This document shows, piece after piece, positions 12,514 through 58,854 of a stretch of 64,000 nucleotides of DNA. A program made the position numbers and the translations under genes. Within the stretch, counting starts at the first letter, position 1; every line of letters starts with the position of its first letter. The notes beneath the pieces are model-generated. The model searched no databases. It was not told where the DNA came from and worked only from the letters and a program-made list of their open reading frames with translations. Source of the DNA: Flavicella sp. (GTDB lineage: Bacteria > Bacteroidota > Bacteroidia > Flavobacteriales > Flavobacteriaceae); assembly GCF_029238425.1 (NCBI RefSeq), contig NZ_JAQWGB010000067.1, positions 1-64,000 of the forward strand, given 5' to 3'.

Positions 12514-12521
12514 TAAAGGTA
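12514..12521 (-). promoter_or_regulatory. Predicted -7 box (TACCTTTA) for the 12480 unit
   Basis: On the minus strand this reads TACCTTTA, matching the Bacteroidota TAnnTTTG element except for the last base. It lies 22 bp gene-proximal to the repeat at 12543-12569, the same geometry as at four other sites in the window. Confidence 0.5.
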
Positions 12522-12542
12522 TCAACTGGGACTCAAAAACAA

Positions 12543-12569
12543 TGTTCTCTAATAAGTTCTTCTTGTACT
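12543..12569 (-). promoter_or_regulatory. 21-bp-period direct repeat, predicted hybrid-regulator operator (site A)
   Basis: On the plus strand, TGTTCT at 12543-12548 and TGTACT at 12564-12569, exactly 21 bp apart. The second half-site continues as TGTACTTTTTTACACA, a string nearly identical at 32830 and 28906. It lies 63-89 bp upstream of the GH110 start codon. AraC-family domains usually bind direct repeats about two helical turns apart, so the hybrid regulator at 51129 is the obvious candidate protein; that link is inference. Confidence 0.65.
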
Positions 12570-12670
12570 TTTTTACACATAATCCTAAAATCCAACAAAA
12601 TAAATCCGAACAAGACGCTAAACGTGTGGGAAAAAGAACTATACCATAAATTCATTTCTTAAATTAGCAT

Positions 12671-14083
12671 CTAAGCTAATTGCAAAAAGTTTTTAGCGTT
12701 ATTATAACAGATATCTTCTATCATACCCCCAATTAATTTTTGATCATTTGGAATCAACCCTTTATTGATATCTTCCGCTAAAAGATTACATAATATTCTT
12801 CTAAAATAATCATGTCTTGGATAAGACAATAGACTCCTAGAATCCGTAAGCATTCCTATAAACCTGCTAAGTAGGCCTAATGAAGAAAGACTATTTATTT
12901 GCTTTTCCATACCCTCTTTTTGATCCAGAAACCACCATCCTGAACCAAATTGCATTTTTCCACTAATTGTTCCATCCTGAAAATTTCCAATCATCGTAGC
13001 TACCAATTCATTATCTCTAGGATTCAGATTGTAAATGATAGTCTTTGTAAGTTGATTCTTTGCGTCCAGTTTATTGAAAAATTTTGACATGTTTTGTGCC
13101 ACAGCTAAATCTCCTATAGAATCAAAACCGGTATCAGAGCCTAAAGTTGTCAATAAACGTGCGTTATTATTTCTTAGGGCTCCATAATGAAATTGTTGTG
13201 TCCATTTTTTTTCCCAATCCATAATTGCCAAATCATGTAAAATTGCTGATTTGTATTTTAAGGCTTCTTTAGAGCTGATTTGAATTCCTTGCAGACTTTT
13301 CCTGAAAATGAGATTTATTTCAATTTCGGTATACTCATCTGCATAAAACTCTTCAATACCATGGTCAGAGAGTTTGCACCCTAATTCCGAAAAATAGTCG
13401 TGTCTTTTTTGCAAGGCCTGTAAGAGTGTTTGATAAGAATTTATTTCTATATCACTCACCTCGGATAGTTTTAAAATATAATTTAAAAAATTTATTGAAT
13501 CGTCAATAACCAGTACTTTATCGGCCCTCCAAGTAGGAAACATTTTTATTTCATTGTTCTCTTCTCCTAACTGCTTGTGGTATTTTAAATCATCTATAGG
13601 GTCATCGGTTGTACAAAAGAGCTCTACATTATAATGTTTTAAAATATCTTGGGGTTTGAATTCCGTGGAACTCAGTTTGAGGTTGCATTTATGATAAATC
13701 TCTTTAGCTGATTCTTTATTTAACAAATCTGTGATATTGAAAGCGGATTTTAGTTCCATATGAGTCCAGTGATACAAAGGATTTCGAACGGTTGCAGGAA
13801 CAGTTTCAGCCCATTTTTCAAATTTCTCCCAATCATTGGTGTTTTTTCCGGTACAAAATTTCTCATCTATACCGTTTGTTCGCATGGCTCTCCATTTATA
13901 ATGATCACCATAAAGCCAAACCTCTGTTATTGATTTGAAATTTTTATTCTCTGCTATCTGTTTAGGATCCAAATGACAGTGATAATCAATAATTGGTAAA
14001 TTAGCTGCATAATCATTGTAAAGTATTTCTGCTGTTTTACTGTCTAAACAGAAATTTTCATTGTTAAATTCTTTAATCTTCAT
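12671..14083 (-). CDS. uxaC: Uronate isomerase (glucuronate/galacturonate isomerase)
   Basis: A 470-residue cytoplasmic enzyme, the same length as E. coli UxaC. It interconverts D-glucuronate and D-fructuronate, or D-galacturonate and D-tagaturonate, the first step of intracellular uronate breakdown. The amidohydrolase-fold metal motif is at IDYHCHLDP (His35, His37), and WLYGDHYKWRAMR and TDSRSLLSYPRHDYF near the C-terminus are characteristic. There is no signal peptide. No uxaB, uxuA or kdg genes are in this window, so later steps must be elsewhere. Its presence inside the PUL argues that the substrate contains a uronic acid. It has its own gap upstream (14084-14331), and site A lies downstream of its stop. 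Confidence 0.93.
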   Translation of the reverse strand: MKIKEFNNENFCLDSKTAEILYNDYAANLPIIDYHCHLDPKQIAENKNFKSITEVWLYGDHYKWRAMRTNGIDEKFCTGKNTNDWEKFEKWAETVPATVRNPLYHWTHMELKSAFNITDLLNKESAKEIYHKCNLKLSSTEFKPQDILKHYNVELFCTTDDPIDDLKYHKQLGEENNEIKMFPTWRADKVLVIDDSINFLNYILKLSEVSDIEINSYQTLLQALQKRHDYFSELGCKLSDHGIEEFYADEYTEIEINLIFRKSLQGIQISSKEALKYKSAILHDLAIMDWEKKWTQQFHYGALRNNNARLLTTLGSDTGFDSIGDLAVAQNMSKFFNKLDAKNQLTKTIIYNLNPRDNELVATMIGNFQDGTISGKMQFGSGWWFLDQKEGMEKQINSLSSLGLLSRFIGMLTDSRSLLSYPRHDYFRRILCNLLAEDINKGLIPNDQKLIGGMIEDICYNNAKNFLQLA

Positions 14084-14233
14084 TTTTGCTTTTATTAATT
14101 CCGGTAAATTGTCTACCTATAATTTGAGTTAGACACGCTGTTTGAGCTTTTTCCAAAAAACACTAATTATGCAATATGGACACCCCTTCAAACATCATCA
14201 AGCATTTTATTTAGGGATACTATTTCACAAAGC

Positions 14234-14269
14234 ATCCCAATCAAATTCCGCTAAAAATTTGATTGGGAT
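14234..14269 (+). terminator. Strong hairpin between uxaC and the beta-helix gene
   Basis: A perfect 14-bp stem (14234-14247 with 14256-14269) and an 8-nt loop, followed on the plus strand by TTTGTTTTTT. The T-run is on the side that would end plus-strand transcription, yet no plus-strand gene is visible here. In the minus direction it lies about 60 bp after the stop of the gene at 14332 but lacks a good T-run. The rest of 14084-14331 shows no gene. Confidence 0.5.
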
Positions 14270-14331
14270 TTTTGTTTTTTATTTGTCCTGTCTACATCAT
14301 TTATTGATGTCTTTCCTACCTAATATTATTT

Positions 14332-16374: not shown

Positions 16375-16406
16375 TGGTTTATAGTTTATAAGTTTGTAGT
16401 TAACTA

Positions 16407-16414
16407 TAAAACTA
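16407..16414 (-). promoter_or_regulatory. Predicted -7 box (TAGTTTTA) for the 16374 gene
   Basis: Minus-strand TAGTTTTA fits TAnnTTT(G/A). It ends 22 bp from the repeat at 16436-16462, as in the other regulon promoters, and would place a transcript start about 25 nt before the start codon. Confidence 0.5.
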
Positions 16415-16435
16415 TAGCATTCAGTAAAAAATTAT

Positions 16436-16462
16436 TGTACTCAAAAAAACCATCTTTGTACT
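16436..16462 (-). promoter_or_regulatory. 21-bp-period direct repeat, predicted hybrid-regulator operator (site D)
   Basis: TGTACT at 16436-16441 and TGTACT at 16457-16462 on the plus strand, 21 bp apart. The first copy continues CAAAAAAA, as at 32809 (TGTTCTCAAAAAAA); the second continues TTTT. The flanks differ from sites A-C after that, so the conserved part is the half-sites and their spacing. Confidence 0.6.
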
Positions 16463-16653: not shown

Positions 16654-16689
16654 GATTAAGAAACCAGTACCTTAATACAATCCAAAATA

Positions 16690-25645: not shown

Positions 25646-25684
25646 TTATTTAATTTATTTTAATTCATTACAATTGGCTTCAAA

Positions 25685-28802: not shown

Positions 28803-28856
28803 CTTTATATTCACTAACATTTCGGTATAAAAACAAATATTGCTAGTTATAAAGTC

Positions 28857-28864
28857 TAAATCTA
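28857..28864 (-). promoter_or_regulatory. Predicted -7 box (TAGATTTA) for the 28802 unit
   Basis: Minus-strand TAGATTTA, identical to the box at 32781-32788 and 21 bp from the adjacent direct repeat, the same distance as there. Confidence 0.55.
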
Positions 28865-28884: not shown

Positions 28885-28911
28885 TGTTCTCTAAAAAATT
28901 ACTTTTGTGCT
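28885..28911 (-). promoter_or_regulatory. 21-bp-period direct repeat, predicted hybrid-regulator operator (site B)
   Basis: TGTTCT at 28885-28890 and TGTGCT at 28906-28911 on the plus strand. The second continues TTTTTACACA as at sites A and C. The interval 28821-29130 otherwise contains the promoter box and the terminator at 29022-29068; no gene is visible. Confidence 0.65.
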
Positions 28912-29021
28912 TTTTTACACAACTCATTAGAAAACAACCCTAAAAAGTATTTAAACCACAGAAATCACACCTAAAAAAATAAAACATGCAAAGTAATTCC
29001 TTATTAAACGATACAAGAAAA

Positions 29022-31173: not shown

Positions 31174-32721
31174 TTATGGCACTGGAGGCAAACCTACTGC
31201 CTTTAAACCTTCGGCATAGGAACGAGCAAAACTCTTTTGCCATTTTTTACTTGATTTGGCATTTTTGTACTCATCACAATATTCATGTGTGTGGTTGAAT
31301 AAAGCCATATCTCCAGTAAAACGAGGATCTCCTTGTTCAACCCCTATCTTCTTCATTTTTGTCTTAAGACGGGTAATATCTGATTGATATTTTGGATTGT
31401 TAATTAAATTATTTGTCTCCCAAGGATCTTTTTCAAGATCATAAAACTCCTCACCATCATTTTCAAAATGAATGATATACTCGAATCGTTTGTCACGAAT
31501 ATTTCGGCAGGCTGGTAATAGCTCATTTACAGAATGGTGTTCCATACCGGTCATCATAATATCGCGACTTGCATCAATTTGACCCGATGCTTTTGAATCG
31601 ATTATTTTCATCATACTTTTACCGCTCATCTCTTTTGGAATAGCAAGTCCTGCGGCATCAAGTATAGTAGGGCCAATATCGACAGCTGATACGAAATCAT
31701 CTACAACTCTACCTCCTGAAGTTCGGTTCTTCCACATTAAAAAGAAAGGAACATGAACCCCTGCATCATAACCAGAAGCCTTTCCTCTTGGGGTCTGATT
31801 TGCCCCTACTTTGTTAAGTGCAAAACCACTCGGATTATCTCCACGGATAAAAGTTCCATTATCTCCTATAAAAATGACCATCGTATTGTCTAGAAATCCT
31901 TTCTCTTCCATGGCATCAAGCATCATTTTAACAGTTCTATCATAATGAAGCATTTCATAAAAAAAACCAAGTTTTTGTTTACTTGGCTTGGTAGAGTTTC
32001 CTTTAGCGTTATAGTAGTCCGATTTTAACTTCCTAACGTCGATTCCGAATTCAGATTTTGTCTTTGTAATAGCCTCATTCGTTTTCATCCAAGAACCGTG
32101 AGGTTCAAAGATACCTGCCCAAATACAAAAAGGCTTGTCAGCACTGCGTTCAGAAAGAAAACTCTTTAATCCTGCAACATAATCTCTAGGGTACAAATAT
32201 TTCGTTTCTTTGGCGTCTTCTCGCATAAAACGGTTGTAATTATCACCAGCAACGGTACGCGAGTTATGCCCAACTTGACTAGGTGAAATTCCCGGACCCC
32301 AGTTTTTTCCAACAGAACATGTTTCATAACCATTTGCATTTAGAACCTGAGGATAAGTGACAAACTTTTGTGGAAAGAAAGCTTGCATAAAAGCTCCTTG
32401 TTCTAACTCCCAAAAATGCTTACCAGACAGCATAGATGCACGAGCAGGAGCACAAGAAGGCGCACTTACATAACCATTGTTAAATATAATCCCCTCTCTT
32501 GCTATTCGATCAACATTTGGAGTTGGCACATTGGAAGTTCCGTAAACACTGTGCTCAAACCAACTGACATCATCTACACTAATAATTAAAAAATTAGGTT
32601 TTTTTTCTTTTAAATCTGTTTTTGAATTTAGGAGCTCACTTTTCTCAAAAGCACTGGCCGTAAATACATTTGCTATCAACAGAAAAAATATTGTTATTTT
32701 AATAAATTTTAAAATGTTCAT
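31174..32721 (-). CDS. S1-family sulfatase, heparan N-sulfatase-like, secreted
   Basis: A 515-residue sulfatase with a Sec signal (about residues 1-24). The metal motif is FLIISVDDVSW and the nucleophile motif C-A-P-A-R (Cys90). The segments SMLSGKHFWELEQGAF and GKNWGPG resemble the SGSH-like branch of S1, as in the sulfatase at 4824; this placement is by eye. FIGDNGTFIRGD carries the late metal site. It is the first gene of a two-gene unit with a strong operator-like repeat and promoter (32781-32835), and is probably co-transcribed with the GH110-like gene at 29131. Confidence 0.92.
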   Translation of the reverse strand: MNILKFIKITIFFLLIANVFTASAFEKSELLNSKTDLKEKKPNFLIISVDDVSWFEHSVYGTSNVPTPNVDRIAREGIIFNNGYVSAPSCAPARASMLSGKHFWELEQGAFMQAFFPQKFVTYPQVLNANGYETCSVGKNWGPGISPSQVGHNSRTVAGDNYNRFMREDAKETKYLYPRDYVAGLKSFLSERSADKPFCIWAGIFEPHGSWMKTNEAITKTKSEFGIDVRKLKSDYYNAKGNSTKPSKQKLGFFYEMLHYDRTVKMMLDAMEEKGFLDNTMVIFIGDNGTFIRGDNPSGFALNKVGANQTPRGKASGYDAGVHVPFFLMWKNRTSGGRVVDDFVSAVDIGPTILDAAGLAIPKEMSGKSMMKIIDSKASGQIDASRDIMMTGMEHHSVNELLPACRNIRDKRFEYIIHFENDGEEFYDLEKDPWETNNLINNPKYQSDITRLKTKMKKIGVEQGDPRFTGDMALFNHTHEYCDEYKNAKSSKKWQKSFARSYAEGLKAVGLPPVP

Positions 32722-32780: not shown

Positions 32781-32788
32781 TAAATCTA
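32781..32788 (-). promoter_or_regulatory. Predicted -7 box (TAGATTTA) for the 32721 unit
   Basis: Minus-strand TAGATTTA, 21 bp from the repeat at 32809-32835. Sequence and spacing are identical to the box at 28857. Confidence 0.55.
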
Positions 32789-32808: not shown

Positions 32809-32835
32809 TGTTCTCAAAAAAAACAATGTTGTACT
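32809..32835 (-). promoter_or_regulatory. 21-bp-period direct repeat, predicted hybrid-regulator operator (site C)
   Basis: TGTTCT at 32809-32814 and TGTACT at 32830-32835 on the plus strand. The second continues TTTTTACACATAAT, matching site A almost base for base over 17 positions. It is 88-114 bp upstream of the sulfatase start codon. Confidence 0.68.
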
Positions 32836-32908
32836 TTTTTACACATAATACTACAAAACAATAAAACAGAGTTCCATTCAACTAAAAAAATTTATTTACC
32901 CAAAAAAA

Positions 32909-40984: not shown

Positions 40985-43135
40985 CTAAATATTTAATTTT
41001 CCATTTTTAATAAAGGGTTGCTTGTAAAGTCTCACTCCCAAGGCAGCTTTTATGGCATTTGCCACAGCCGGTCCTGCGGGCGGTAACGTAGGTTCTCCTA
41101 AACCAGTAGGAGCTATATCACTTTTAACAAAATAAGTTTCTAGCCTTGGGGTTTCATTCATTCTTATAAGTCGATACGAATCAAAATTTAAATTTTGAGC
41201 TGCCCCATTTTTTAAATCTAAATCTCCATACATAGCATGGCCTATACCATCTATCACGCCACCTACACATTGATTGTCTGCTCCCAATGGATTTACCACA
41301 ACACCACAATCAACCGCACAATATACTTTTTTCACAATAGGCAATTGATTTTCAATGATAACTTCAGCTATAAGAGCCACATGCGTATTATGACTAAAAT
41401 ATGAGCTAAAACCTTGATAGGTTCCATTTGGAGCTTCACCCCAATTTGCCTTTTCCGTAACCAAATTAATCACACCTTCCATTCTTTTAGGGCTGTATGC
41501 CATTCTGCGATCAGAAGTGTCAGCTTTCTTCAATAACTCTAATCGTAAACTAACAGGATCTTGTTGCAATTCTTCGGCCAATTCATCCATGAAACTTTGT
41601 TCTGCAAAAGCCAAAATATTGGATATAGGTGCTCTCCATGCCATGGTAGTCACCCTACTTTTTATTCTAGCTATATCAATCTGATAGTTTTCGATAGAGG
41701 CAGCTGGAAAAAAATTAGCCCTAGAATCATTGATATTCCCACCAACTGCTATTTCTTTTAGGTAATAACTAGTAACCTTACCATTTTTAATACCTGCCTT
41801 GATTTGATATTTAACTTTAGGCCTGTAGAAGCCGTTTGCAAAATCGTCTTCTCTTGAATTCACCATTTTTATAGGCTTCTTTACCAAGTGAGAAATTTCT
41901 GCTGCTTCCAACACAAAATCATTTTTTAACCTTCTACCAAAGCCACCACCAATTCGAGTCATTTCCAACTCTATATCATCCCTATCTCGTCCCAATAAAC
42001 GAGCAACTGCCATTGCCGCCCCAGTTGGGGTTTGAATAGGTCCTACCAAATGAACTTTATGCTTTGTTACATTGGCATAAAAATTCATAGGTTCTAAAGT
42101 GTTATGCGGTAAAAAGGGAGCTTCATATACAGCAGAAACTATTGTATCAGCGTCATCCAACGCAGCTTTCACATTCCCATCTTTTCTTCTAGTTTTTAGC
42201 TGAGAAGGATTCTCTTTCTCTACTAAATCCAGCATTTTTTTATCCTGTTGTGTCGTACTTTCTAATTTTTCATTTGAAGTCCATTTTACCTCAATTAGTT
42301 TCTTTGCTTTGAAAACAGTCCATGTGTTAACTCCAACAATGGCTATTTTATTTTTGAATTCAATTACATTCAAAACTCCAGATAAGTTCTTTGCTTCATC
42401 TGCATTAAAACTTACAATTTTTTGTCCAAAAGAAGGTGGTCTAATAACAGTAGCAATAAACATTCCTTCAATTTTATAATCTAACCCAAACAACGGTTTT
42501 CCGGATACAATTTTATCTAAGTCTACATTTTTAATATGTTGTCCAATAATTTTAAACTCTGATGGATCTTTTAATTTTATTTTAGTGGGTACTTTTAATT
42601 TTGTCGCATCTTCTACCAACTCTCCATAACCTAATTGATCACCCCTCCTATTATAAACAATCCCATTTTCCGCATGACAATCCTTTACAGACACTTTCCA
42701 TCTCTTTGCTGCAGCAGTGATAAGCATTTGTTTGGCTGCAGCGCCTGATGTTCTCAATGGCAACCATGAAAACTCAATTGATTTACTTCCGCCGGCTCCT
42801 TGTCTTTTATATTTTTTTATATCAAGTTTAGCTTGCTCCACAATTACATTTTCCCAAGCTACATCTAACTCTTCTGCAATTAACATGGGCAAAGATGTTT
42901 TAACACCTTGACCAATCTCAGGGTTAGGTGCATAAATTATTACCTTACCATCTTGTGCAATTTTAATGAAGGCATTAAAATTAAGAAAACCTGAACGTGC
43001 TTGCTCTTCTGAAAGTATCGTAAGAGGATTTTTGGCGTTTAAAAAATTAATTCCAAACAATAAACCTCCACTTGCAAACAAGGTAGATTTTAAAAACTGT
43101 CTCCTACTTGAATCTGTCTGATTTGTTGCTTTCAT
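40985..43135 (-). CDS. Molybdopterin hydroxylase large subunit (isoquinoline 1-oxidoreductase beta-like), Tat-exported
   Basis: A 716-residue xanthine-oxidase-family subunit. A twin-arginine leader is present (SRRQFLK, residues 10-16), so it is exported folded with cofactor. Landmarks are NPEIGQGVKTSLPMLIAEEL, the molybdopterin-contact region GGGFGRRLKNDF, and a C-terminal GLGEPTLPPAGPA with the family's essential Glu. The family oxidises aldehydes or N-heterocycles at the molybdenum centre using water. The small [2Fe-2S] subunit is encoded immediately upstream with a 13-bp gap. No FAD subunit or cytochrome is adjacent, so the electron acceptor is unknown. Within a PUL, a periplasmic aldehyde oxidation of a released sugar is the simplest inference, though an unrelated passenger role is possible. 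Confidence 0.88.
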   Translation of the reverse strand: MKATNQTDSSRRQFLKSTLFASGGLLFGINFLNAKNPLTILSEEQARSGFLNFNAFIKIAQDGKVIIYAPNPEIGQGVKTSLPMLIAEELDVAWENVIVEQAKLDIKKYKRQGAGGSKSIEFSWLPLRTSGAAAKQMLITAAAKRWKVSVKDCHAENGIVYNRRGDQLGYGELVEDATKLKVPTKIKLKDPSEFKIIGQHIKNVDLDKIVSGKPLFGLDYKIEGMFIATVIRPPSFGQKIVSFNADEAKNLSGVLNVIEFKNKIAIVGVNTWTVFKAKKLIEVKWTSNEKLESTTQQDKKMLDLVEKENPSQLKTRRKDGNVKAALDDADTIVSAVYEAPFLPHNTLEPMNFYANVTKHKVHLVGPIQTPTGAAMAVARLLGRDRDDIELEMTRIGGGFGRRLKNDFVLEAAEISHLVKKPIKMVNSREDDFANGFYRPKVKYQIKAGIKNGKVTSYYLKEIAVGGNINDSRANFFPAASIENYQIDIARIKSRVTTMAWRAPISNILAFAEQSFMDELAEELQQDPVSLRLELLKKADTSDRRMAYSPKRMEGVINLVTEKANWGEAPNGTYQGFSSYFSHNTHVALIAEVIIENQLPIVKKVYCAVDCGVVVNPLGADNQCVGGVIDGIGHAMYGDLDLKNGAAQNLNFDSYRLIRMNETPRLETYFVKSDIAPTGLGEPTLPPAGPAVANAIKAALGVRLYKQPFIKNGKLNI

Positions 43136-43148
43136 AGTACATCTAAAA

Positions 43149-43610
43149 TTAGTTCATTTCTTCTGCCGCCTTTGCCACCGCATCTTCAATTCTATTGTAT
43201 GCAGCACATCTACAAATATTTCCATGCATTGCATTTCTAATTTCCTCAGTTGATGGTTTATTATTTTGATTTAAAAAAGATGCAGCTGTCATGATTTGAC
43301 CAGATTGACAATAACCACATTGAGGAACATCCACCTCTTTCCAAGCTTTTTGCAACGGGTGCGAATTATTTTCAGACAATCCTTCTATCGTTTTAATTTC
43401 ATTTTCTCCAATGGCACTAATTGGTAACAAACAACTTCTAATTGCGACCCCATTAAAATGAATAGTACACGCGCCACATTGACCTATACCGCAACCAAAT
43501 TTAGTCCCCATCAAACCAAGTGTATCTCTCAATACCCAAAGCAATGGAGTTGTTTCGTCCACATCTATTTTATAAGACTTTGCATTGACTTTTAAATTAA
43601 ATACTGCCAT
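43149..43610 (-). CDS. [2Fe-2S] subunit of the molybdenum hydroxylase (IorA-like)
   Basis: A 153-residue electron-transfer subunit with two [2Fe-2S] sites. The plant-ferredoxin-type cluster ligands are Cys40, Cys45, Cys48 and Cys60; the second, helical cluster uses Cys98, Cys101, Cys133 and Cys135. Size and order match the small subunits of isoquinoline 1-oxidoreductase and CO-dehydrogenase-type enzymes. It has no signal of its own, so it is presumably carried out with the Tat-tagged large subunit encoded next. It lies 76 bp downstream of the GH78 gene. Confidence 0.93.
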   Translation of the reverse strand: MAVFNLKVNAKSYKIDVDETTPLLWVLRDTLGLMGTKFGCGIGQCGACTIHFNGVAIRSCLLPISAIGENEIKTIEGLSENNSHPLQKAWKEVDVPQCGYCQSGQIMTAASFLNQNNKPSTEEIRNAMHGNICRCAAYNRIEDAVAKAAEEMN

Positions 43611-46259: not shown

Positions 46260-47780
46260 TTACCACCCTGGATTTTGACTAGAATTCTCATTTCTATCAA
46301 TTTCCTGAGTTGGAATTGGATACAACTCATAACTTGGATCATAAGTTCCCTCTTGCGCATTAATGTTAAATTCAAATACATCCTTAACTTTTCCTAATCT
46401 TCTCAAATCAAAAATATCATGGAATTCAAAATTCAACTCCTTTACTCTTTCCATCCAAATTTCATCACGCAATGTTTCGGTTGTCCAAGCCGCTGCTCTA
46501 TCTATAAGCGGAGCATTTGCTCTAGCAAGAATCACATCTAAATTATCATACACGACAGCACTTGGACCATTTAATTCATTTTCTACTTCTGCTAACATTA
46601 AGTAAGCATCTGCCAAACGATAAATAATAAAATCCGGATCTCCGTTACAACATTGGTTTTGATCAGGATCGATATATTTATTTTGCACCATACCCCTTTC
46701 TTTTAAATGGTAGGGAGGATTTACACCAAATCTTAATATTCTTCCATTCGATCTATGCTCATATTCAATTGCCAAATTCACGTCTTTTCGTTCATCAGCA
46801 ACATCATAAGCATTATACAATTCTTCCATGAATCCAATAAGATACTGCCCTCCAGCATTAAAACTTGTCCATTTTGACTGAAGTGCGCCATAGCTATAAG
46901 ACATAGCATTTCCGTGAACCGGTATCGATTGTGACTGCTGAACAGAAAATATCAACTCTGCGTTTAATTCCTTACTTCCATCAAATTGAGTACGGTCTTC
47001 TGAAATAGAAAACACATCAATATACCTTGGCATCAAACTATATCCATATTCCCCTTGGTTATTAATTACCTCTTCAAGGTTGGTCTTAGCCAGTGCTAGT
47101 TTTGAAGCATCTTCTAAAGGTTTCCCTGCCATTGTTAAATACACCTTACCCAATAGGAACGGAGCCGCTCCTCTAGCAACACGACCATCAATACCTTGAA
47201 TAGGCAAATTCTGCGCTGCAAACTCTAAGTCAGGAATAATAATTTCATCATAAATTTCTAACATAGGACTTCTTGCCAAATAGGCTTGTTCTTCTACTTC
47301 CGTCGGTGTAAATCTCTTTGGCACATCTCCATAAAGTCTCACTAAATTAAAATACAAATAGGCTCTCATCCAACGTGCTTCTGCTATGTAAGCATTCTTT
47401 TGCTCATCTGAAAGATCAACACCTGGGAGGTATTTAATTGCCATATTACATCTATTAATGATATCAAAATGGCTTCGCCAAGTTTGATTTATTTGAGCAT
47501 CAGATGCATCAAAATTATAAGTCATACGGTTTCTCACAGTAGCAGACCTAGAAACTGTAAACATTCCAGGCATCATTATTGTAAATACTCCTTGCTGCCT
47601 GTAAAAACCTATGGTATGTACTCCATGATAAATACCATTAATTGCTATTTCAGCATCTTCTGAAGTTTTAAAAAAACTTGCAGTTGTTACAGTGGAATAA
47701 GGTTCCTCTTTAAGATCAGAACAGGAAAAAATCCCTAAAGCAAGTATTAATGTTAGTAATTTAACGCTTAGTTTTTTCAT
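46260..47780 (-). CDS. SusD/RagB-family glycan-binding lipoprotein
   Basis: About 506 residues from the ATG at 47780, where MKKLSVKLLTLILALGIFSC gives a proper lipoprotein leader (lipid-acceptor Cys20). An upstream in-frame ATG at 47882 would add 34 residues ahead of it and bury the signal, so I reject it. The mature part has the SusD N-terminal motif (TTASFFKTSEDAEIAINGIY) and the C-terminal RagB-type region (YLMLAEVENEL, WMERVKELNFEFHDIFDLRRLG). It caps the SusC transporter at the cell surface and binds the incoming oligosaccharide. SusC is encoded just upstream, with a gap of about 103 bp from this start. Confidence 0.95.
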   Translation of the reverse strand: MKKLSVKLLTLILALGIFSCSDLKEEPYSTVTTASFFKTSEDAEIAINGIYHGVHTIGFYRQQGVFTIMMPGMFTVSRSATVRNRMTYNFDASDAQINQTWRSHFDIINRCNMAIKYLPGVDLSDEQKNAYIAEARWMRAYLYFNLVRLYGDVPKRFTPTEVEEQAYLARSPMLEIYDEIIIPDLEFAAQNLPIQGIDGRVARGAAPFLLGKVYLTMAGKPLEDASKLALAKTNLEEVINNQGEYGYSLMPRYIDVFSISEDRTQFDGSKELNAELIFSVQQSQSIPVHGNAMSYSYGALQSKWTSFNAGGQYLIGFMEELYNAYDVADERKDVNLAIEYEHRSNGRILRFGVNPPYHLKERGMVQNKYIDPDQNQCCNGDPDFIIYRLADAYLMLAEVENELNGPSAVVYDNLDVILARANAPLIDRAAAWTTETLRDEIWMERVKELNFEFHDIFDLRRLGKVKDVFEFNINAQEGTYDPSYELYPIPTQEIDRNENSSQNPGW

Positions 47781-47883
47781 ACTATTATTATTTTTTATAT
47801 TCAATAATGCCATGTAAGGATTACTGTTTTTAATCATTGTCTTGTGTACCAATATTTCATTTGTTCGTTTCATAGTTGTCATT

Positions 47884-50800
47884 TTATAATCCTAATTTAA
47901 CTCCAAATGTCATTGTTGTCGTTTGTGGGTACGCAAAAAAATCAACTCCAATTGCATCATCACTATTCCCAAAAAGATTCACTTCTGGGTCTGCTCCGCT
48001 ATAATTGGTAAATGTTAGCAAATTAGTTGCAGTAAAATACACCGTTAAGGAACGAATCCTTTCTACTTCTTTTAATGGAACATTGTATCTCAATGATACG
48101 TTCTTCAATCTTACATAGGAACCATCTTCTATTACTGCCTCTGTTGCTTTAATCGTGGAATTCCCTATAGTAGATGGATATCTAACATCGTTATGTGGGT
48201 TTTCAGGTGTCCAACGGTTTGCGTACCATTCAGCAGTATTATTCCATCGATTATATCCTTTTCCAATATAAATATTACCTGCATTGAACAATTCGTTACC
48301 ATATGCACCTTGAATAAATACATTCAGTGTAAAGTTTTTATATACAAAATCATTATTGAATCCAAAGTGAAAGTCAGGATTTGGATCACCAATAATCACC
48401 CTATCATCAGCTGTAATCAAACCATCTCCAGCATCAGGGATACCATCTCCATCAGTATCTACAGTTAACTGATCTTTATATTTAGTTGACCCTAGAGTTT
48501 CTACCCCTGAAAGTGTGGCAAAAGTAGGATTCCCATCTTGATCAAAATCTTCAGCCTGTATTAAACCATCCAATTCATATCCATAAAATACACTTAAAGG
48601 GTTATTTAAAAACTGCCCTGAAATAGGTTCATTTAGGAAGTTATTATCCAAGATTGGTCCTGGCACAAAATCTAGTCCTCCTAAGTCCAAAACCTTTGAC
48701 CTATTGGCAGAATAATTTAAATTCGTCTTCCATCTAAAAGTTTTACCTCTGACAGGCATTCCTGACAAACTTACTTCAATACCTTTATTACCAACACTAC
48801 CTCTATTAATTATAATACTTTGATATCCTGCTGACCCTGGCAATTGAAATGGTAATAATAAATCCCTAGTTTTTTTATCATAATAATCAACAGACAACTC
48901 AATTCTATTCTTAAATAATCCTAGATCCAGTCCTGCATTGAATTGTTCTGTAGTTTCCCATTTTAAATCTGAGTTCCCCATTACTGTTGGTCGTGCACCT
49001 GAAGCCTCTAAATCACCGTTTACATAGTTTGCTACTGAATATTGAGCAATAGATTGATATGGCTGAATAGCCTGACTACCCGTTTCTCCATACCCCCCTC
49101 TAATCTTTAAACTTGAGATTGCCTTAACACCTTGCATGAACTCCTCAGCACTCACTCTCCATGCAGCTGATACTGAAGGGAAAAAAGCATATTTATTTGA
49201 CTCTGTAAAAACACTTGAGCCATCTAACCTACCAGAAAAAGAAACAAGATATTTTGATTTATAATCATAATTTGCTCTAAAAAATGCCGATTGTATCTCT
49301 CTATCCGTTCTAGTATATGAGTTTACTAATACTTGATTGGCAAACGAAAGTCCATAAACTCCCAGTCCTTCAAAAGGAAAATCGACAGCAGTTAAATTGC
49401 TTAATTTAGTGATTGTTTTCTGATAAGAGGTCCCCAATACAGTATTAATGTTATGTCTACCTAATCTTTTTTTGTAGGTTAAATATGATTCTATCAAATT
49501 GGTAGTATTTGACGAATTATACAATCTACCCTGTCCATTTACTCTAAAACCCGCTGGTGTTTCAGAACTTAAGAATCTCTCTCGGATACCGGTTTTTGAA
49601 TTAGTTCCTGCCTGAACAGTTAAATTTAAATCATTATTAAACTTATAATTTGCAGTAAAATTCGCCAAAATCACCTTACTATTTTCATTGTCAATATCAC
49701 CCGTAATCTGTTTCAATGGGTTCGTTGGGACATCAATACCGTCAACTGGAAATTCATCATCACCAATTTCATCCTCATCAATCAAAGGAGAGGCTCTTAA
49801 AGCATTGAAAATAATACCACCTGCACTAACAGCTGTTCCATTGGAACCAGCCGCTCTTTTTGTATCTGTAACTGAATAGTTAAGATTTGTAGTCAGCGTT
49901 AATTTGTCATTTATTTTATTATTTAAATTCGCTCTTACCGTTGCACGTTCAAAACCAGTACCAATAATTACACCACCATAATCTGAATAAGAACCCGAAA
50001 TTCGGTACTTATTGTCGCTACTTCCACCTGCAACCGAAAGGTTTACATTCTGCCCAAATGAAGATTGAAGAACTTTATCAATCCAAACTGTAGTTGGTTG
50101 ATTTGTATCTTGAGGAGGATCAAATCTTCCTGTTTCATTTCCCCATTCAGCATAGTCAGGAGATGACATCATATCTGGATAATCCGCTGCATTAGTCACA
50201 AAAGTTTCAACCGATATATTTACAACTGGTTTCCCTTGACCTCCTTTTTTAGTCGTAATTAATATAACTCCATTTGCTCCACGAGAACCATAAATCGAAG
50301 TTGCCGAAGCATCTTTTAACACTTCCACACTCTCAACATCATCCATATTTATAAATGACAAGGGACCAGAGTTCGAAGCATCAAGTCCTCCGCCTGGAAT
50401 AGAACTATTATCTAAAGGAAAACCATCTAAAACGATTAACGGTTCATTATTACCAGAAATTGAATTATTACCTCTAATTCTAATTCTAGTTTCCGCACCA
50501 GGTTCTCCACTTACGGAAGATATTTGTAAACCAGTACTTCTACCCTGTAAGGCTGTTTCTAATGTTGGTGTATTGATACTAGCAATATCCTCGGCACTCA
50601 CGGAACTAATTGCTCCCGAAACCTTACGTGCTTCTTGAGTACCATAACCAACAACAACAACCTCTTCTAATTTGGCGAAATCTTCGATTAAATTAACCGT
50701 TATCGTTGATTCATCCTTGAATACAACTTCTTCAGTTAAATAGCCGATATAACTTATTACTATCGTTGCCCCTATTTTTACATTTGCTATGGAAAATTCA

Positions 50801-50973
50801 CCATCAAAATTGGTGATCGATCCTTTACTTGTTCCCTTAACTACTACTGTCGCACCAGGCAAGCCAATCCCTTCAGAAATTACTTTACCGGTAACTACTT
50901 TGTTCTGAGCATAGGTTATACCAGAAAATAGCATAAGACATAACAATAGCGTTATTTCCTTAATTTTAATCAT
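47884..50973 (-). CDS. SusC/RagA-family TonB-dependent outer-membrane transporter
   Basis: A 1029-residue transporter. A Sec signal (residues 1-22) is followed by a carboxypeptidase-like regulatory domain (VVTGKVISEGIGLPGATVVVKGT), the TonB-box region VVVGYGTQ near residue 108, a plug domain (LQGRSTGLQI, IRIRGNNSISG, DASATSIYGSRGANGVILITTKKG) and the beta-barrel, ending in a terminal aromatic-rich strand (TMTFGVKLGL). It imports oligosaccharides across the outer membrane with SusD. It is the only SusC/SusD pair in the window, so the whole enzyme set probably feeds one transporter. Operator-like site E lies 68-94 bp upstream. Confidence 0.97.
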   Translation of the reverse strand: MIKIKEITLLLCLMLFSGITYAQNKVVTGKVISEGIGLPGATVVVKGTSKGSITNFDGEFSIANVKIGATIVISYIGYLTEEVVFKDESTITVNLIEDFAKLEEVVVVGYGTQEARKVSGAISSVSAEDIASINTPTLETALQGRSTGLQISSVSGEPGAETRIRIRGNNSISGNNEPLIVLDGFPLDNSSIPGGGLDASNSGPLSFINMDDVESVEVLKDASATSIYGSRGANGVILITTKKGGQGKPVVNISVETFVTNAADYPDMMSSPDYAEWGNETGRFDPPQDTNQPTTVWIDKVLQSSFGQNVNLSVAGGSSDNKYRISGSYSDYGGVIIGTGFERATVRANLNNKINDKLTLTTNLNYSVTDTKRAAGSNGTAVSAGGIIFNALRASPLIDEDEIGDDEFPVDGIDVPTNPLKQITGDIDNENSKVILANFTANYKFNNDLNLTVQAGTNSKTGIRERFLSSETPAGFRVNGQGRLYNSSNTTNLIESYLTYKKRLGRHNINTVLGTSYQKTITKLSNLTAVDFPFEGLGVYGLSFANQVLVNSYTRTDREIQSAFFRANYDYKSKYLVSFSGRLDGSSVFTESNKYAFFPSVSAAWRVSAEEFMQGVKAISSLKIRGGYGETGSQAIQPYQSIAQYSVANYVNGDLEASGARPTVMGNSDLKWETTEQFNAGLDLGLFKNRIELSVDYYDKKTRDLLLPFQLPGSAGYQSIIINRGSVGNKGIEVSLSGMPVRGKTFRWKTNLNYSANRSKVLDLGGLDFVPGPILDNNFLNEPISGQFLNNPLSVFYGYELDGLIQAEDFDQDGNPTFATLSGVETLGSTKYKDQLTVDTDGDGIPDAGDGLITADDRVIIGDPNPDFHFGFNNDFVYKNFTLNVFIQGAYGNELFNAGNIYIGKGYNRWNNTAEWYANRWTPENPHNDVRYPSTIGNSTIKATEAVIEDGSYVRLKNVSLRYNVPLKEVERIRSLTVYFTATNLLTFTNYSGADPEVNLFGNSDDAIGVDFFAYPQTTTMTFGVKLGL

Positions 50974-51040: not shown

Positions 51041-51067
51041 TGTTCTTTTTTGCGCTGAATTTGTTCT
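51041..51067 (-). promoter_or_regulatory. 21-bp-period direct repeat, predicted hybrid-regulator operator (site E)
   Basis: TGTTCT at 51041-51046 and TGTTCT at 51062-51067 on the plus strand, 21 bp apart, between the regulator's stop codon (51129) and the susC start (50973). Unlike the other five sites, I cannot find a good TAnnTTT box 21-22 bp downstream. Confidence 0.6.
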
Positions 51068-51128: not shown

Positions 51129-54100
51129 TTATTTTTTGCTTAAAGACTCACGAAACTCTTTAGGAGTCATATGGTACTTCTCTTTAAAACATTTATAAAA
51201 ATAAGCACGACTTTTGAATCCACAATCCTGCATTATATTGCTAATAGCATCATCACTACTTTTTAGCATTATCACAGATTTTTTTATTCTATAGTTACGA
51301 ATTATTTCAATTGGAGTTTTTCCGGTAAGATTTTTTATCGTGACTAATAATTTTGTCTTACTTACATTTAAATTGGAAGATATAATATTAATATTCAGGT
51401 CTGGATTACCATACTGCTGCTGTAACACCTGAAGAAAAGAATATAAAAATTCTCTTTCCTTACTGTTTACCGGTTTTACATACTCGTCTTCTTTGAGACT
51501 GTCAGCATACCTAGATTTTATTGATTGCACCTCGGAAATAATATTTGACACGCGCGCTTTTAAAAACTCATTAGAAAAAGGCTTCGTAATATAATCTATC
51601 GCACCTATATCAAAACCTACTATTTTATTTTTCACCTCTGATTTTGAGGTTAATAAAATAAAAGGGATATGCGCCGTTAATTTATTTGATTTAACATATT
51701 TACAAAGTTCTATCCCATCCATTACCGGCATATTCAAATCACTAATAATTAAGTCAGGGACAATTGTTTTTATATTATTTAATGCCAGTTGTCCATTCTT
51801 AAACTTATAAACCTTGTATTCAGATGAGAATAATTCACCTATAAAATCTCTCATTTCTGCAACATCTTCAACAATATAAATAATATGATCACGGGAAGTA
51901 GGACGCGCATCTATCGAATATTCTAAGGTGTTATTCAAATTTTGATAGATCAATGATGGCTCTTGTTTATTGTTTTTCGTACCTAACATATCTGTAGAAA
52001 TATGTTCCTTACCAAGCAATAATTCTATCTCAAAAACGGCCCCTCCTTCTGGACTATTAAATACTTTTATGCTCCCTTTATGTGCCTCTACAATAGATTT
52101 CACTATGGACAAGCCAATACCTGCTCCTTGGATATTAGTTGATTTCCCTTTATAAAATCTATCAAACACTTGATTAATTTCATCCTCAGCAACTCCAAGT
52201 CCAGAATCGGAAACACTAATTCTAACCCGCTCTTCTTGTTTTTCTATTTTGATGGAAACGAATCCATTTTCGGGAGCATGCTTGAAGGCATTTGAAAGTA
52301 AATTGTAGATAATTTTTTCAAATTTTCTAGGATCAATCCACATCAATATTTTATCCGTATTTTTTTCAAAATTAAATTTAATCTGTTTCTTAACGGACAA
52401 GTCATCAAAGCCGATCTTAATATTCCAGATAAAATCCAAAATATTTATTTCATAACAGCTAAGATTTAATTTATCATTTTTGATTCTCCTAAATTCAATT
52501 AGTTGGTCTAATAAAAGTAATAGGTAGCTTACTTGGTTTTTCATTCGCAAAAGATTAAACCTAGTATTATCGTTTACGGTATGTTTTGCAAGCAGATTGT
52601 CAAGAGGCCCGTTGATTAAAGAAAGTGGTGTTTTAAAATCATGCGCAATATTGGTGAAAAACTTTATTTTCTCCTCAGTAAGCTCATATACTTTCTGTTT
52701 TTCAAATTTTTCAATCTGTATGCTCGTTTTTAAACGTTCAATTTTCCAAAGATAACGGTACACTAAAATAAGAACCGCTGAGAAAAGTAGTAAGTAAAAT
52801 AATTTAGCCCAAAACGTCAACCATATAGGTGGACTTATTTTTATGTTAAATGTTTTTGAGGGTTCAATCCAGTTATCTTTAGATACAGCCGCTGTGAATT
52901 CAAAAACATATTTACCTGGTGGTACTTTGACGTATTCTGCTGTAAAACTGGAACCATTTACCGTTCTCCATTTTTCATCAAAACCTATCAAACGATACTT
53001 TAATTTTCCACTTTGAGCATTCTTATAGTTAGTTGTTATTAGATCAATAGCAAAAACGTTTTCGTTATGTTCTAATTCAATTTGCTTCGTATAATCAAGG
53101 CCCTGTTGCAGCAAATTTCTATTATTAACCATTGATTCTGGCTTCACAACATCTCCAAACAATAAAAAGTCACCAAAGTGAATCTGAGCTAAATCTAACT
53201 CTTCATTTTTCAAATCAGAATTTAAAAAAGTAAGACCTTTATTCCCTGCAAACACCAATCTTCCATCTGGTAATGTTACCGCGTCGCTCGTGAAGAAATG
53301 TGACAATAATCCATCTTCTTCAGTAATAGAATTGAATGAAAGATTCTCTGTATTGAATTCGTTTAGTTTATTATTTGTGGCTATATATAAATTTCCATTT
53401 TTGCTTTCCGCAATTCCTTTACAAACATTATTAGACAAACCCTCCCGTTCACCGTAATTTATAATGACTATTTTATCACCCTTCTTTACCAACTCACTTA
53501 TACCACCACCCTCTGTAGCAACCCAAAGCCTATTTTTGGAATCTCTAAATATTCCACTTACAAAATTACTTCCTAGAGTATAGTTACTTTGTTCATTATT
53601 GGCAAATTGTTCATATTTTAAATTAAGTAGTTGTTTTTTATTATTGTTTGTTTCAATTTTCAATAACCCATTGTACCAAGTTCCAATCCACAAAGAATTA
53701 TCTATTGGATCATTATATACTCTTCTGATGACAAAGTCTTCATGTTGAGAAAAATTGAATTTTAAACTTTTTACAATTTTGTTTTCTTCGTCAACCTCTA
53801 TACGAAATAATCCTCTTCTACATCCGATCCAAATAAATCCAAAATCATCTTCTTTTATATCATATATAACTTTAGGAGCTCTGATCGTTTTATTAAATTC
53901 TACAACTGGCTTCAAAAATTTCTCACCATGTTTAAGTCTATACAACCCGCTTCCCCTACCGATCCAAAGATTTTCCCGGGAATCTTTATACATGCATTCA
54001 ATAACGGTAACATCGTTTTTATTTAACGTAAACCAAAGGGGTTCTACCAAGTTTTTTTTATAATTAAATGCGAAAACTCCTCTTTTTCGAGTACCGCAAA

Positions 54101-55220
54101 TAATTTTCGTTTCATCATAAAGTACTATAGAAGGTATATAATCTTCCGGCAACCCGTTCTTTCGGCTATATGCAAAAACTCTATTGGATTGACTTTTAAA
54201 TACACTTATACCATTATCAATAGTACCAATCCATATATTCCCCTCTTTATCTTCAAACATGCTGGAAACAGAGTTACTGCATAAAGACGTGTTATCATTC
54301 AAATCATTAGAAAGCTTAATGATTTCCGTTTGATTTTCATTGAAATGACGAATTATATTTATTCCTTCGCCAGGAATCGCTGCCCAAATATTCATTTTTG
54401 TATCGATCAAAAGTCGACGAATATTTTGTCCTCCTAAGTATTCCGATTCCTTTTCGAGAGAAATGCTTTCCCCTGTTTTAATTTTAAACTTTTTAATTCC
54501 ATCCGAGCCTGCCAAATATAAATATCCATTTTTATCGGTTTTACATATTGACAACCATTTCGTTCCCAGAACTTCCCGTTTAAAAATTTGATTTATCCTT
54601 AAATTGAAATCACAATTAATAAGTCCTCCGCCTGTTAGGACCCAGAAATTCCCATATTTATCCTCACAGAAATTAATAATATAACTTAAATTGGAAGTCT
54701 TTTTTTGTTCAAAACTAATCTCGCTACAAACATTATTTTTTAAATTATAAACAAAAGCTTTTCCTGATTCCGTAAGTATCCAAAGTCTATTTTCGGAATC
54801 CTCAGAAATCCTTGATATTCGCGTATTAAGATCATCAAGAGTTTTATTTCCGGTTCTTTCAAACCTTTGAAGTTGTCTATTGTAAACACAAATACCAGCA
54901 TCAGTCCCTATATACAACCGCCCACTTGAATGTTCTTGAATAGTCTGTACACGGCTGTTAATAATACTCGTTGAATCAGACAAAGAATTTCTAAAAACCT
55001 TAAAACTCTTCCCATCAAATCTATTTAAACCATCAAAGGTAGAAGCCCAAATAAAGCCTTCGGAATCCTGATAAACACTTGTTACACCAATATGAGATAA
55101 GCCCTCTTTAACAGAAATATTTTGGAACTTTATTTCTCCACTACCCGTAAAAGCAAAAGAGGTTATTTGTACAAAAAAGCAATTTAATATAATGATATTT
55201 AGGAGGAATTGTTTTCTCAT
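51129..55220 (-). CDS. Hybrid two-component system regulator (HTCS): sensor kinase, receiver and AraC-type DNA binding
   Basis: A 1363-residue one-protein signalling system for the PUL. Order: signal/first membrane segment (1-24), periplasmic beta-propeller repeats with repeated GLWIGT-type motifs (about 35-690), a Y_Y_Y domain (about 720-790), transmembrane segment about 800-823, histidine kinase with phospho-acceptor His860 (FFTNIAHDFKTPL), ATP-binding N box (NLLSNAFKHAPENG) and G boxes (DSGLG, GAGIGLSIVKS), receiver domain 1112-1225 with Asp1161, and AraC-type helix-turn-helix 1255-1363 (GFKSRAYFYKCFKEKYHMTPKEFRE). Such proteins bind a glycan breakdown product in the periplasm and activate PUL promoters. 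It is probably the protein that binds repeats A-F. Confidence 0.97.
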   Translation of the reverse strand: MRKQFLLNIIILNCFFVQITSFAFTGSGEIKFQNISVKEGLSHIGVTSVYQDSEGFIWASTFDGLNRFDGKSFKVFRNSLSDSTSIINSRVQTIQEHSSGRLYIGTDAGICVYNRQLQRFERTGNKTLDDLNTRISRISEDSENRLWILTESGKAFVYNLKNNVCSEISFEQKKTSNLSYIINFCEDKYGNFWVLTGGGLINCDFNLRINQIFKREVLGTKWLSICKTDKNGYLYLAGSDGIKKFKIKTGESISLEKESEYLGGQNIRRLLIDTKMNIWAAIPGEGINIIRHFNENQTEIIKLSNDLNDNTSLCSNSVSSMFEDKEGNIWIGTIDNGISVFKSQSNRVFAYSRKNGLPEDYIPSIVLYDETKIICGTRKRGVFAFNYKKNLVEPLWFTLNKNDVTVIECMYKDSRENLWIGRGSGLYRLKHGEKFLKPVVEFNKTIRAPKVIYDIKEDDFGFIWIGCRRGLFRIEVDEENKIVKSLKFNFSQHEDFVIRRVYNDPIDNSLWIGTWYNGLLKIETNNNKKQLLNLKYEQFANNEQSNYTLGSNFVSGIFRDSKNRLWVATEGGGISELVKKGDKIVIINYGEREGLSNNVCKGIAESKNGNLYIATNNKLNEFNTENLSFNSITEEDGLLSHFFTSDAVTLPDGRLVFAGNKGLTFLNSDLKNEELDLAQIHFGDFLLFGDVVKPESMVNNRNLLQQGLDYTKQIELEHNENVFAIDLITTNYKNAQSGKLKYRLIGFDEKWRTVNGSSFTAEYVKVPPGKYVFEFTAAVSKDNWIEPSKTFNIKISPPIWLTFWAKLFYLLLFSAVLILVYRYLWKIERLKTSIQIEKFEKQKVYELTEEKIKFFTNIAHDFKTPLSLINGPLDNLLAKHTVNDNTRFNLLRMKNQVSYLLLLLDQLIEFRRIKNDKLNLSCYEINILDFIWNIKIGFDDLSVKKQIKFNFEKNTDKILMWIDPRKFEKIIYNLLSNAFKHAPENGFVSIKIEKQEERVRISVSDSGLGVAEDEINQVFDRFYKGKSTNIQGAGIGLSIVKSIVEAHKGSIKVFNSPEGGAVFEIELLLGKEHISTDMLGTKNNKQEPSLIYQNLNNTLEYSIDARPTSRDHIIYIVEDVAEMRDFIGELFSSEYKVYKFKNGQLALNNIKTIVPDLIISDLNMPVMDGIELCKYVKSNKLTAHIPFILLTSKSEVKNKIVGFDIGAIDYITKPFSNEFLKARVSNIISEVQSIKSRYADSLKEDEYVKPVNSKEREFLYSFLQVLQQQYGNPDLNINIISSNLNVSKTKLLVTIKNLTGKTPIEIIRNYRIKKSVIMLKSSDDAISNIMQDCGFKSRAYFYKCFKEKYHMTPKEFRESLSKK

Positions 55221-57471: not shown

Positions 57472-57546
57472 AAAAATATATTGTATTTACGTATTCTAAT
57501 TATTTATCTTTCTTTAATTGATTCTTCTGGGAGGCCTATTAAAACT

Positions 57547-58722
57547 CTATGGCCAACGAACAATGGAGTTGGTATACATGGCATCCAGTCCCATTTGTAC
57601 ACAGGTAGCCGTATTAGCTCCGGTTAGTACATTTGATTTTGGTTGCGTATTGTTGATGATAGCATCTCCAAAATCAATAAGTGCTTGTTTACTCGGATCC
57701 AAATGCTCAACGTTGATGGCATATCCTTTATTTTTATCCCATTGTGCTGTGGCTCCACTTACTCCATCGACATCTTTAATTACTTTATTTTTTTGACCCT
57801 CTGGATAAAACCAAGCTTGCTTTGTATCAATAACAATCGTCCCTTTATCCCCCATAACTTTTATTTCATAACCATCGCTAGCATTGCTAGTTAAACAGGA
57901 AAATTTTGCGATCACCCCACTTGGATAAGTGTAGGTCAAGTGAGTGTTATCAAAGGTTTCTCTTCCATCCTTCCAATAGTCAATCCCGCCAACTCCCATC
58001 ACTTGATTGGGTACTTCATCTAAAACCCAATTCACAAAATCGATTTGATGCGAACTTAATTCAGCTGTTAAGCCACCGGAAAACTCACGATACATTCTCC
58101 AATTAATAGCTTTTTCATACTTAGACTCGGGCACTGTTCGTCTCCAATTGGCATGCCGGTTCCATTGACACTCAAAGGCACAAATCTTTCCGATTTTACC
58201 TTGTTTTATCAATTCTACCACGTGTGCATATAACCTAGAACTGTGGTATTGATGCCCCGTTTGAAATATATTGTTTGACTGATTCGATTTTTCTACTAAT
58301 GATCGAATACCTTTATAACCTTTGGCCAGTGTTTTTTCACAGTACACATGTTTACCAGCATCCAGAGCATCCAGAGCAATCGATGCATGCGTACTAAACG
58401 GTGTTGCAACGATAACCGCATCAACAGCAGTATTATCAAGTAGACCTCTATAATCAGAATAACCAACAGGTTTTGAATTGGCCTTTGACAAACCATTCTC
58501 TAACCTAAAAGGGAGAATATCACAGGAGGCAATTACATTAAGGTTCTCTATAGAATTAAGAACTGACGTGAGTCCGCTTCCACGATTACCAGTTCCAATG
58601 ACTCCAAGATTAATGGTATTTAAAACATTCGGTTTAGACAATAAGCTTCCATAGGTGTATGAAGCCCCCATCATACCAGCCGTTGCTATCCCCGTTTTTT
58701 TAATAAATGATCGTCTTTTCAA
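57547..58722 (-). CDS. Gfo/Idh/MocA-family oxidoreductase, Tat-exported, TTG start
   Basis: A 391-residue protein with a twin-arginine-type leader (MKRRSFIKKTG) and the Rossmann NAD motif GVIGTGNRGSG near residue 40. The EKTLAKGYKG region, with the Lys typical of this family, and GGLTAELSSHQIDFVNW are also present. The start codon is TTG at 58722; an in-frame TAG two codons earlier excludes an upstream start. Exported members act either as NAD-dependent dehydrogenases or as retaining glycosidases that use bound NAD (GH109-like), so it may cleave or epimerise a sugar of the substrate. It is the first gene of the unit with the triple half-site operator F. Confidence 0.88.
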   Translation of the reverse strand: MKRRSFIKKTGIATAGMMGASYTYGSLLSKPNVLNTINLGVIGTGNRGSGLTSVLNSIENLNVIASCDILPFRLENGLSKANSKPVGYSDYRGLLDNTAVDAVIVATPFSTHASIALDALDAGKHVYCEKTLAKGYKGIRSLVEKSNQSNNIFQTGHQYHSSRLYAHVVELIKQGKIGKICAFECQWNRHANWRRTVPESKYEKAINWRMYREFSGGLTAELSSHQIDFVNWVLDEVPNQVMGVGGIDYWKDGRETFDNTHLTYTYPSGVIAKFSCLTSNASDGYEIKVMGDKGTIVIDTKQAWFYPEGQKNKVIKDVDGVSGATAQWDKNKGYAINVEHLDPSKQALIDFGDAIINNTQPKSNVLTGANTATCVQMGLDAMYTNSIVRWP

Positions 58723-58799
58723 AACCTAAATAATTTTTAGTTACGTAACGTTCTTTCGAGTTTTTATTAAAAAATTCTGAAATATTAATTACAACTACT

Positions 58800-58807
58800 A
58801 AAAGTAT
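58800..58807 (-). promoter_or_regulatory. Predicted -7 box (TACTTTTT) for the 58722 unit
   Basis: Minus-strand TACTTTTT fits TAnnTTT. It lies 21 bp from the repeat starting at 58828, the same distance as at sites B and C. Confidence 0.45.
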
Positions 58808-58827
58808 ATGGTAAAAAAAAAAAGCAT

Positions 58828-58854
58828 GTACTCTAATGTTCTAAAATTGTACTC
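58828..58854 (-). promoter_or_regulatory. Triple half-site operator (site F), 21-bp outer spacing
   Basis: TGTACT at 58828-58833 and TGTACT at 58849-58854, 21 bp apart, with a third copy, TGTTCT, at 58838-58843 (10 bp after the first, 11 bp before the last). All three would face the same side of the helix. It lies 106-132 bp upstream of the Gfo/Idh/MocA start codon. Confidence 0.62.

Follow-up and report, generated by a model that had tools for sequence, protein, structure and literature searches.

What turns on the dispersed operons of the polysaccharide utilization locus (PUL) of this Flavicella sp., and can the DNA element responsible be recognized in the genome itself? The question is raised by the window analyzed here, i.e. 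the whole stretch of 64,000 nucleotides at positions 1 to 64,000 of contig NZ_JAQWGB010000067.1 (RefSeq assembly GCF_029238425.1), where a PUL with a single hybrid two-component system regulator (HTCS; 51129–55220) carries the same short repeat ahead of six of its genes. We consider it very likely that the six sites are operators of this HTCS, each one an activator site of the AraC type that spans two helical turns and adjoins the promoter. Such a reading is favored by the 21-bp geometry of the repeats, by the fixed distance to the -7 box, by the confinement of the full architecture to the predicted regulon and by the occurrence of 21-bp repeats at other HTCS loci; the same four lines of evidence support the initial annotation, which had put forward this type of site and named the HTCS as its predicted ligand.

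Direct repeats at a fixed distance from the -7 box

The pattern TGTnCT-N15-TGTnCT has six exact matches in the window, all on the plus strand, compared with a mean of 0.10 and a maximum of 1 in 100 shuffles. On the strand of the genes, every site reads AGnACA-N15-AGnACA and ends 61–104 nt ahead of a start codon, and all six fall within the non-genic 8.6% of the window (5,530 of the 64,000 bases, outside the 34 open reading frames (ORFs) taken as genes). When AGnACA pairs 8–60 nt apart were counted on the coding strand, lag 21 gave six and every other lag at most one, with no pair at lag 21 on the opposite strand of the window. A graded tail of weaker sites was not seen, as AGnACAA-N13-RAGnACA with two mismatches matched 18 times versus 13.3 expected. 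The six intergenic, co-oriented pairs 21 bp apart of the initial annotation are borne out, five of them at the coordinates originally given, while the sixth begins at 58827 and not at 58828. The sites also share three features with the HTCS operators predicted in Bacteroides (PMC3878776): two direct boxes about 21 bp apart (exactly 21 in all six), a position ahead of PUL operons including susC/susD, and a locus that contains an HTCS gene.

Bacteroidota promoters have a -7 consensus TAnnTTTG, combined in Bacteroides with TTTG near -33, whereas no -33 motif was identified in Flavobacterium (PMC7366714; this paper, like the others cited below, is drawn on for the parts of its text available to us). 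Five of our six promoters contain a TAnnTTT box starting 20 or 21 nt past the operator (Table 1), confirming the near-fixed distance noted originally, and when the six leaders were shuffled 20,000 times, five boxes never shared their position within 2 nt. The end of the downstream half-site consequently lies approximately where a -33 element would be. AraC-type activators that touch RNA polymerase usually sit at such a -33-like position.

The initial annotation had suggested scanning the genome for the bare pair, and in the assembly (3.3 Mb, 215 contigs, 92.7% complete) this pattern by itself proved non-discriminating, with 18 matches versus 13 in a reversed control. Outside the window it matches 12 times, inside ORFs in nine cases, over an ORF start in one (C101:9915) and in intergenic DNA in two, both on contig C127. 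The combination of operator and box at a spacing of 20 or 21, in contrast, has five exact copies genome-wide, all within this PUL. Allowing one mismatch added seven places, three on C127, three inside ORFs and one on C110. The three on C127 are intergenic, correctly oriented and 89–203 nt ahead of ORFs; the other four match the background yield, since the reversed control for operator plus box with up to one mismatch returned five over both spacing searches. We discarded the places on C116 (at 65901), C144 and C99, which lie inside ORFs, and the one on C110, which is intergenic but has no convincing gene in front of it; an exact bare pattern in intergenic DNA at C127:1530 lacks the box and was left out of the count. 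By this reckoning, the predicted regulon comprises about nine promoters, namely the six of the window and three on C127, so that the six-promoter regulon of the initial annotation stands in its members but not in its extent.

The C127 sites lie 105 nt ahead of a SASA ORF, which is followed by a sulfatase, and 89 and 203 nt ahead of two ORFs for secreted proteins. Sulfatases, a SASA esterase, a GH2 enzyme and secreted proteins are encoded on this contig, one of the secreted proteins weakly matching the ulvan-lyase beta-trefoil (23.9 bits, below the cut-off of 27).

The hybrid regulator and the assignment of the sites

A propeller sensor (Reg_prop), Y_Y_Y, HisKA, HATPase, a receiver and an AraC-type helix-turn-helix (HTH) are united in the single chain encoded at 51129–55220, as expected of an HTCS; H-, N- and G-box-like kinase motifs and the receiver aspartate (D1161) are present, and the second HTH reads FKSR. 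To the directly observed features, that is the sites, their spacing, the box distance, the genome-wide confinement of the full architecture and this domain make-up, we would add by inference DNA binding, its control by phosphorylation, activation and polymerase contact, probably as follows. Glycan fragments would bind the propeller/Y_Y_Y sensor, and the HisKA/HATPase part would phosphorylate D1161. Each of the two direct half-sites (approximately AGtACAA and GAGwACA), which face the same side of the DNA at a distance of two helical turns, would be occupied by one of the fused AraC-type domains. The HTCS would probably make direct contact with RNA polymerase, in the manner of a class II-type activator, because the downstream half-site ends 20–21 nt before TAnnTTT, about the place of a -33 element. 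The outcome would be the activation of roughly nine transcription units in the window and on C127.

The geometry was also examined at other HTCS loci. We collected 253 upstream regions from 40 HTCS-centered stretches (4 from the same genome and 36 from relatives, chosen from the best HTCS matches), and 163 upstream regions from 20 control stretches elsewhere in the genomes of 20 relatives; the control retains one 91-aa HTCS-like match, one SusC/SusD pair and SusC matches in three other stretches. TACA-N17-TACA, a repeat with lag 21, was found in 16 of the 253 promoters at HTCS loci, with 0–4 at the other lags between 12 and 35, but in none of the 163 control promoters, where other lags gave 0–5. 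The looser ACA-N18-ACA followed by a box 15–23 nt further on occurred in 11/253 versus 0/163, and several of the TACA-repeat promoters have TAnnTTTG downstream. HTCS loci whose second HTH reads FKSR have the TACA repeat more often than the others (10 of 20 versus 2 of 20; p = 0.014, the grouping having been picked post hoc). These counts suggest that operators at other HTCS loci of this family follow the 21-bp direct-repeat rule as well.

Several observations weigh against our assignment. AGnACA pairs at lag 21 are absent from all 253 promoters of the HTCS loci (and from the 163 of the control), so that the link to these loci rests on the geometry and the TACA core. Generic 21-bp self-similarity was raised in control promoters as well (5.1 versus 7.0); as this measure is non-specific and arises partly from tandem and other simple repeats, we relied on the TACA count alone. 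Moreover, the two regulators closest by identity of the DNA-binding domain (DBD), at loci L216 (38%) and L217 (37%), are of the non-FKSR type, yet both loci have the TACA repeat. Within the window, the operator at 51041 before susCD is not accompanied by a good box but by a degenerate stretch with two mismatches, and no site with two or fewer mismatches was found ahead of the HTCS gene.

For the alignment of orthologous promoters suggested in the initial annotation, no counterpart was found. An orthologue of the HTCS did not turn up among 99 and 397 genomes, where the best full-length matches are 29–32% identical, and in 395 genomes drawn from the whole class no HTCS match outside the own genome reached E <= 1e-170 (the draws overlap). 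SusD matches at E <= 1e-60 were obtained in 8 of 397 genomes including the own one, the seven others being 36–44% identical; the stretches of about 34–40 kb around these seven homologues contain no exact site and, taken together, 18 one-mismatch matches. The PULs of these relatives have little in common with the one studied here beyond SusC/SusD. The bare pattern showed no regulon-like enrichment over 299 genomes including the own, as judged by eye from the counts and by a closer look at G139 alone, and several genomes had 7–11 matches versus 0–5 in the control. Genome G139, with 21 matches and a control of 6, was rejected as a regulon since most of its matches belong to a 7-bp satellite. This satellite, an (AGTACAA)n-like repeat, is dispersed in G139 (L114–L132) and imitates the operator pattern at many of the 21 matches.

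A further point of this kind concerns the independence of the sites. The initial annotation had described them as set in otherwise different flanks, which is not so for 12543, 28885 and 32809. The 30 nt upstream of these sites (12570–12599, 28912–28941 and 32836–32865) have 18–25 positions in common, compared with a background mean of 9.1, and an identity of at least 18/30 arises in 0.14% of random pairs; the alike flanks have TGTGTAAAAA directly before the site. The three operators may therefore not be independent and may be copies. At two C127 sites, too, TGTGT is found five bases ahead of the upstream half-site, which brings TGTGT-N5-AG to 5 of 9 sites. It may be where a longer, AraC-like upstream half-site is contacted on its outer side, or else a trace of promoter copying.

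Turning to alternatives, the first is a variant of the preferred reading and compatible with it: the HTCS may bind its operators unphosphorylated, the contact between receiver and DBD having been lost, and act partly as a repressor or as a permanently bound factor. For most HTCSs, an inhibitory contact has been proposed in which an S/CHIP-D-K motif keeps the DBD on the receiver (PMC11253607). Here, the corresponding positions read A1183-HIP, E1255 and T1294, a departure from the majority group (S/C, D in alpha6, K in alpha8). In 40 aligned relatives, position 1183 is S in 38 and N in 2, position 1255 is D in 38 and E in 2, and position 1294 is K in all 40, such that A1183 and T1294 are found in none of them. 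When residues of the motif were exchanged on its receiver side, fragments of BT4124 and BT4663 bound DNA unphosphorylated, and BT2391 (FHIP-QK) represses its own PUL (PMC11253607). As these changes free binding from phosphorylation, our HTCS may likewise be on the DNA before the signal arrives. Carried to its end, this would describe an orphan HTCS lineage whose receiver–DBD lock is broken at three positions and which occupies about nine operators unphosphorylated, the glycan altering a regulator that is already bound; such a scenario strikes us as conceivable but rather doubtful. The kinase motifs and the receiver aspartate appear intact, the next lysine, 1296, is kept, and the operators are at activator-like positions. 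In addition, equating the D and K of the motif with 1255 and 1294 is an interpretation based on conservation and on helix positions in an AlphaFold model of the two domains, in which E1255 is in the sixth and T1294 in the eighth helix, as are the D and K of the paper (PMC11253607). This model (pLDDT 82, pTM 0.50, built from three sequences) was used for helix positions only; neither the model nor a PDB search with it yielded the relative placement of the two domains. We thus regard the unphosphorylated variant as unlikely.

Still less probable in our view is control of the sites by another AraC-family regulator. HTH_18 matches number 21 in the genome, and above all a 298-aa protein with an AraC-type DNA-binding domain (C116:64357–65253) starts only 0.4 kb past the end of the window, near the PUL, which also counts against the HTCS. 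AraC regulators of other make-up can use direct repeats, as described for XylRA in the text available to us, although we do not take the XylRA and RhaS papers as direct precedent because they concern other AraC proteins. The gene of the 298-aa regulator is, however, divergent from an operon for an L-fucose-isomerase-like protein, a class II aldolase and an FGGY kinase (L020:357–5404). Local sugar regulators are usually arranged in this way, divergent from a sugar operon. Along the 19.3 kb of contig past the window, the sole one-mismatch match to operator plus box sits inside the aldolase gene, and the second HTH of the 298-aa protein reads GFSDRYHF and is non-FKSR. One of the operators occupies the gap between susC and the HTCS gene. 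That the repeats are due to chance, to copying of one promoter or to an extended core-promoter motif that needs no regulator is highly improbable: although the bare pattern hardly exceeds its background over the genome (18 versus 13), three of the operators resemble each other in their upstream flanks and the satellite of G139 imitates a related pattern, there are six sites versus 0.10 expected, all intergenic and co-oriented. The remaining three operators have at most 17/30 upstream nucleotides in common with any other operator, the spacers differ, and every one of the five exact copies of operator plus box falls within the PUL.

Gene content of the locus

All ORFs of the window longer than 195 aa are on the minus strand. 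The gene run codes for sulfatases, beta-helix and pectate-lyase-like proteins, a GH28-type enzyme and GH78- and GH106-type rhamnosidases, as well as a glucuronate isomerase, a SusC/SusD pair and the HTCS. The glycan of the PUL is probably sulfated and probably contains rhamnose and uronate. Two side observations are added. A molybdopterin-binding oxidoreductase with a 2Fe-2S partner is encoded at 40985–43610, following susCD and the GH78-type gene in the run; to our knowledge, this is an unusual companion in a PUL for a sulfated glycan. On C127, a DDE transposase gene (L019:12739–13617) adjoins the predicted operator at 12468.

Table 1. Predicted operators, -7 boxes and associated genes (window coordinates unless C127 is named).
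Feature	Position	Strand	Sequence	Remarks
Operator	12543..12569	-	AGTACAAGAAGAACTTATTAGAGAACA	62 nt ahead of gene at 12480 (beta-helix GLAA-B-like protein)
Operator	16436..16462	-	AGTACAAAGATGGTTTTTTTGAGTACA	61 nt ahead of gene at 16374 (weak pectate-lyase-like and secretion-tail matches)
Operator	28885..28911	-	AGCACAAAAGTAATTTTTTAGAGAACA	64 nt ahead of gene at 28820 (sulfatase)
Operator	32809..32835	-	AGTACAACATTGTTTTTTTTGAGAACA	87 nt ahead of gene at 32721 (sulfatase)
Operator	51041..51067	-	AGAACAAATTCAGCGCAAAAAAGAACA	67 nt ahead of susC at 50973; -7 box degenerate
Operator	58827..58853	-	AGTACAATTTTAGAACATTAGAGTACA	104 nt ahead of gene at 58722 (Gfo/Idh/MocA oxidoreductase)
-7 box	12515..12521	-	TACCTTT	21 nt past operator 12543
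-7 box	16408..16414	-	TAGTTTT	21 nt past operator 16436
-7 box	28858..28864	-	TAGATTT	20 nt past operator 28885
-7 box	32782..32788	-	TAGATTT	20 nt past operator 32809
-7 box	58800..58806	-	TACTTTT	20 nt past operator 58827
Predicted operator-plus-box promoters, C127 (L019)	7768-7794, 9124-9150, 12468-12494			one mismatch each
HTCS, 1363 aa	51129..55220	-		Reg_prop, Y_Y_Y, HisKA, HATPase_c, Response_reg, HTH_18; proposed operator-binding regulator
SusC-like TonB-dependent receptor	47884..50973	-		first gene after operator 51041
SusD-like protein	46260..47882	-		

Relation to known HTCS and AraC operators

The closest known counterparts are the operators that Ravcheev et al. predicted in 2013 for 16 HTCSs of B. 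thetaiotaomicron, all of them direct repeats with an average of 21 bp, which the authors read as dimers bound to one face of the DNA two turns apart (PMC3878776). Our sites resemble these in being direct repeats in which two conserved boxes enclose a variable spacer, in standing before susC/susD and enzyme operons and in having an HTCS in the locus. They differ in that the operators of 2013 are from Bacteroides and were footprinted across orthologues, in the half-site AGnACA, which does not recur in the promoters of the other HTCS loci sampled here, and in the distance to the -7 box, which is measured in the present study. The initial annotation had known of no published site for this protein, which holds for the protein as such, but the kind of operator had been predicted for Bacteroides HTCSs in that study (PMC3878776). 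Judged by the parts of these papers at hand, the operator sequence is new, whereas the kind of operator is already described in gut Bacteroides. In the same organism, binding was shown in 2024, when response-regulator fragments of B. thetaiotaomicron HTCSs bound susCD promoter DNA in gel shifts (PMC11253607); the regulator of our PUL has the same domain order as these HTCSs but departs from their S/CHIP-D-K motif at three positions. Outside Bacteroides, we recognized no report of such sites from titles and abstracts, within a partial coverage of the literature.

For a sulfated-glycan PUL from outside Bacteroides, the present analysis contributes a concrete candidate operator and a predicted regulon with about nine promoters, and it locates the downstream half-site in this PUL 20–21 nt ahead of the -7 box. 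Operators of this kind would make HTCS regulons readable from environmental-genome sequence, even for a regulator without known orthologues. The arrangement also has a counterpart in E. coli AraC, whose I1-I2 site consists of two direct half-sites 21 bp apart located beside the -35 region. Compared with I1-I2, the sites of this PUL differ in sequence, in the sensor of their proposed regulator and in the sigma factor, the promoter element next to them being the Bacteroidota -7 box TAnnTTTG.

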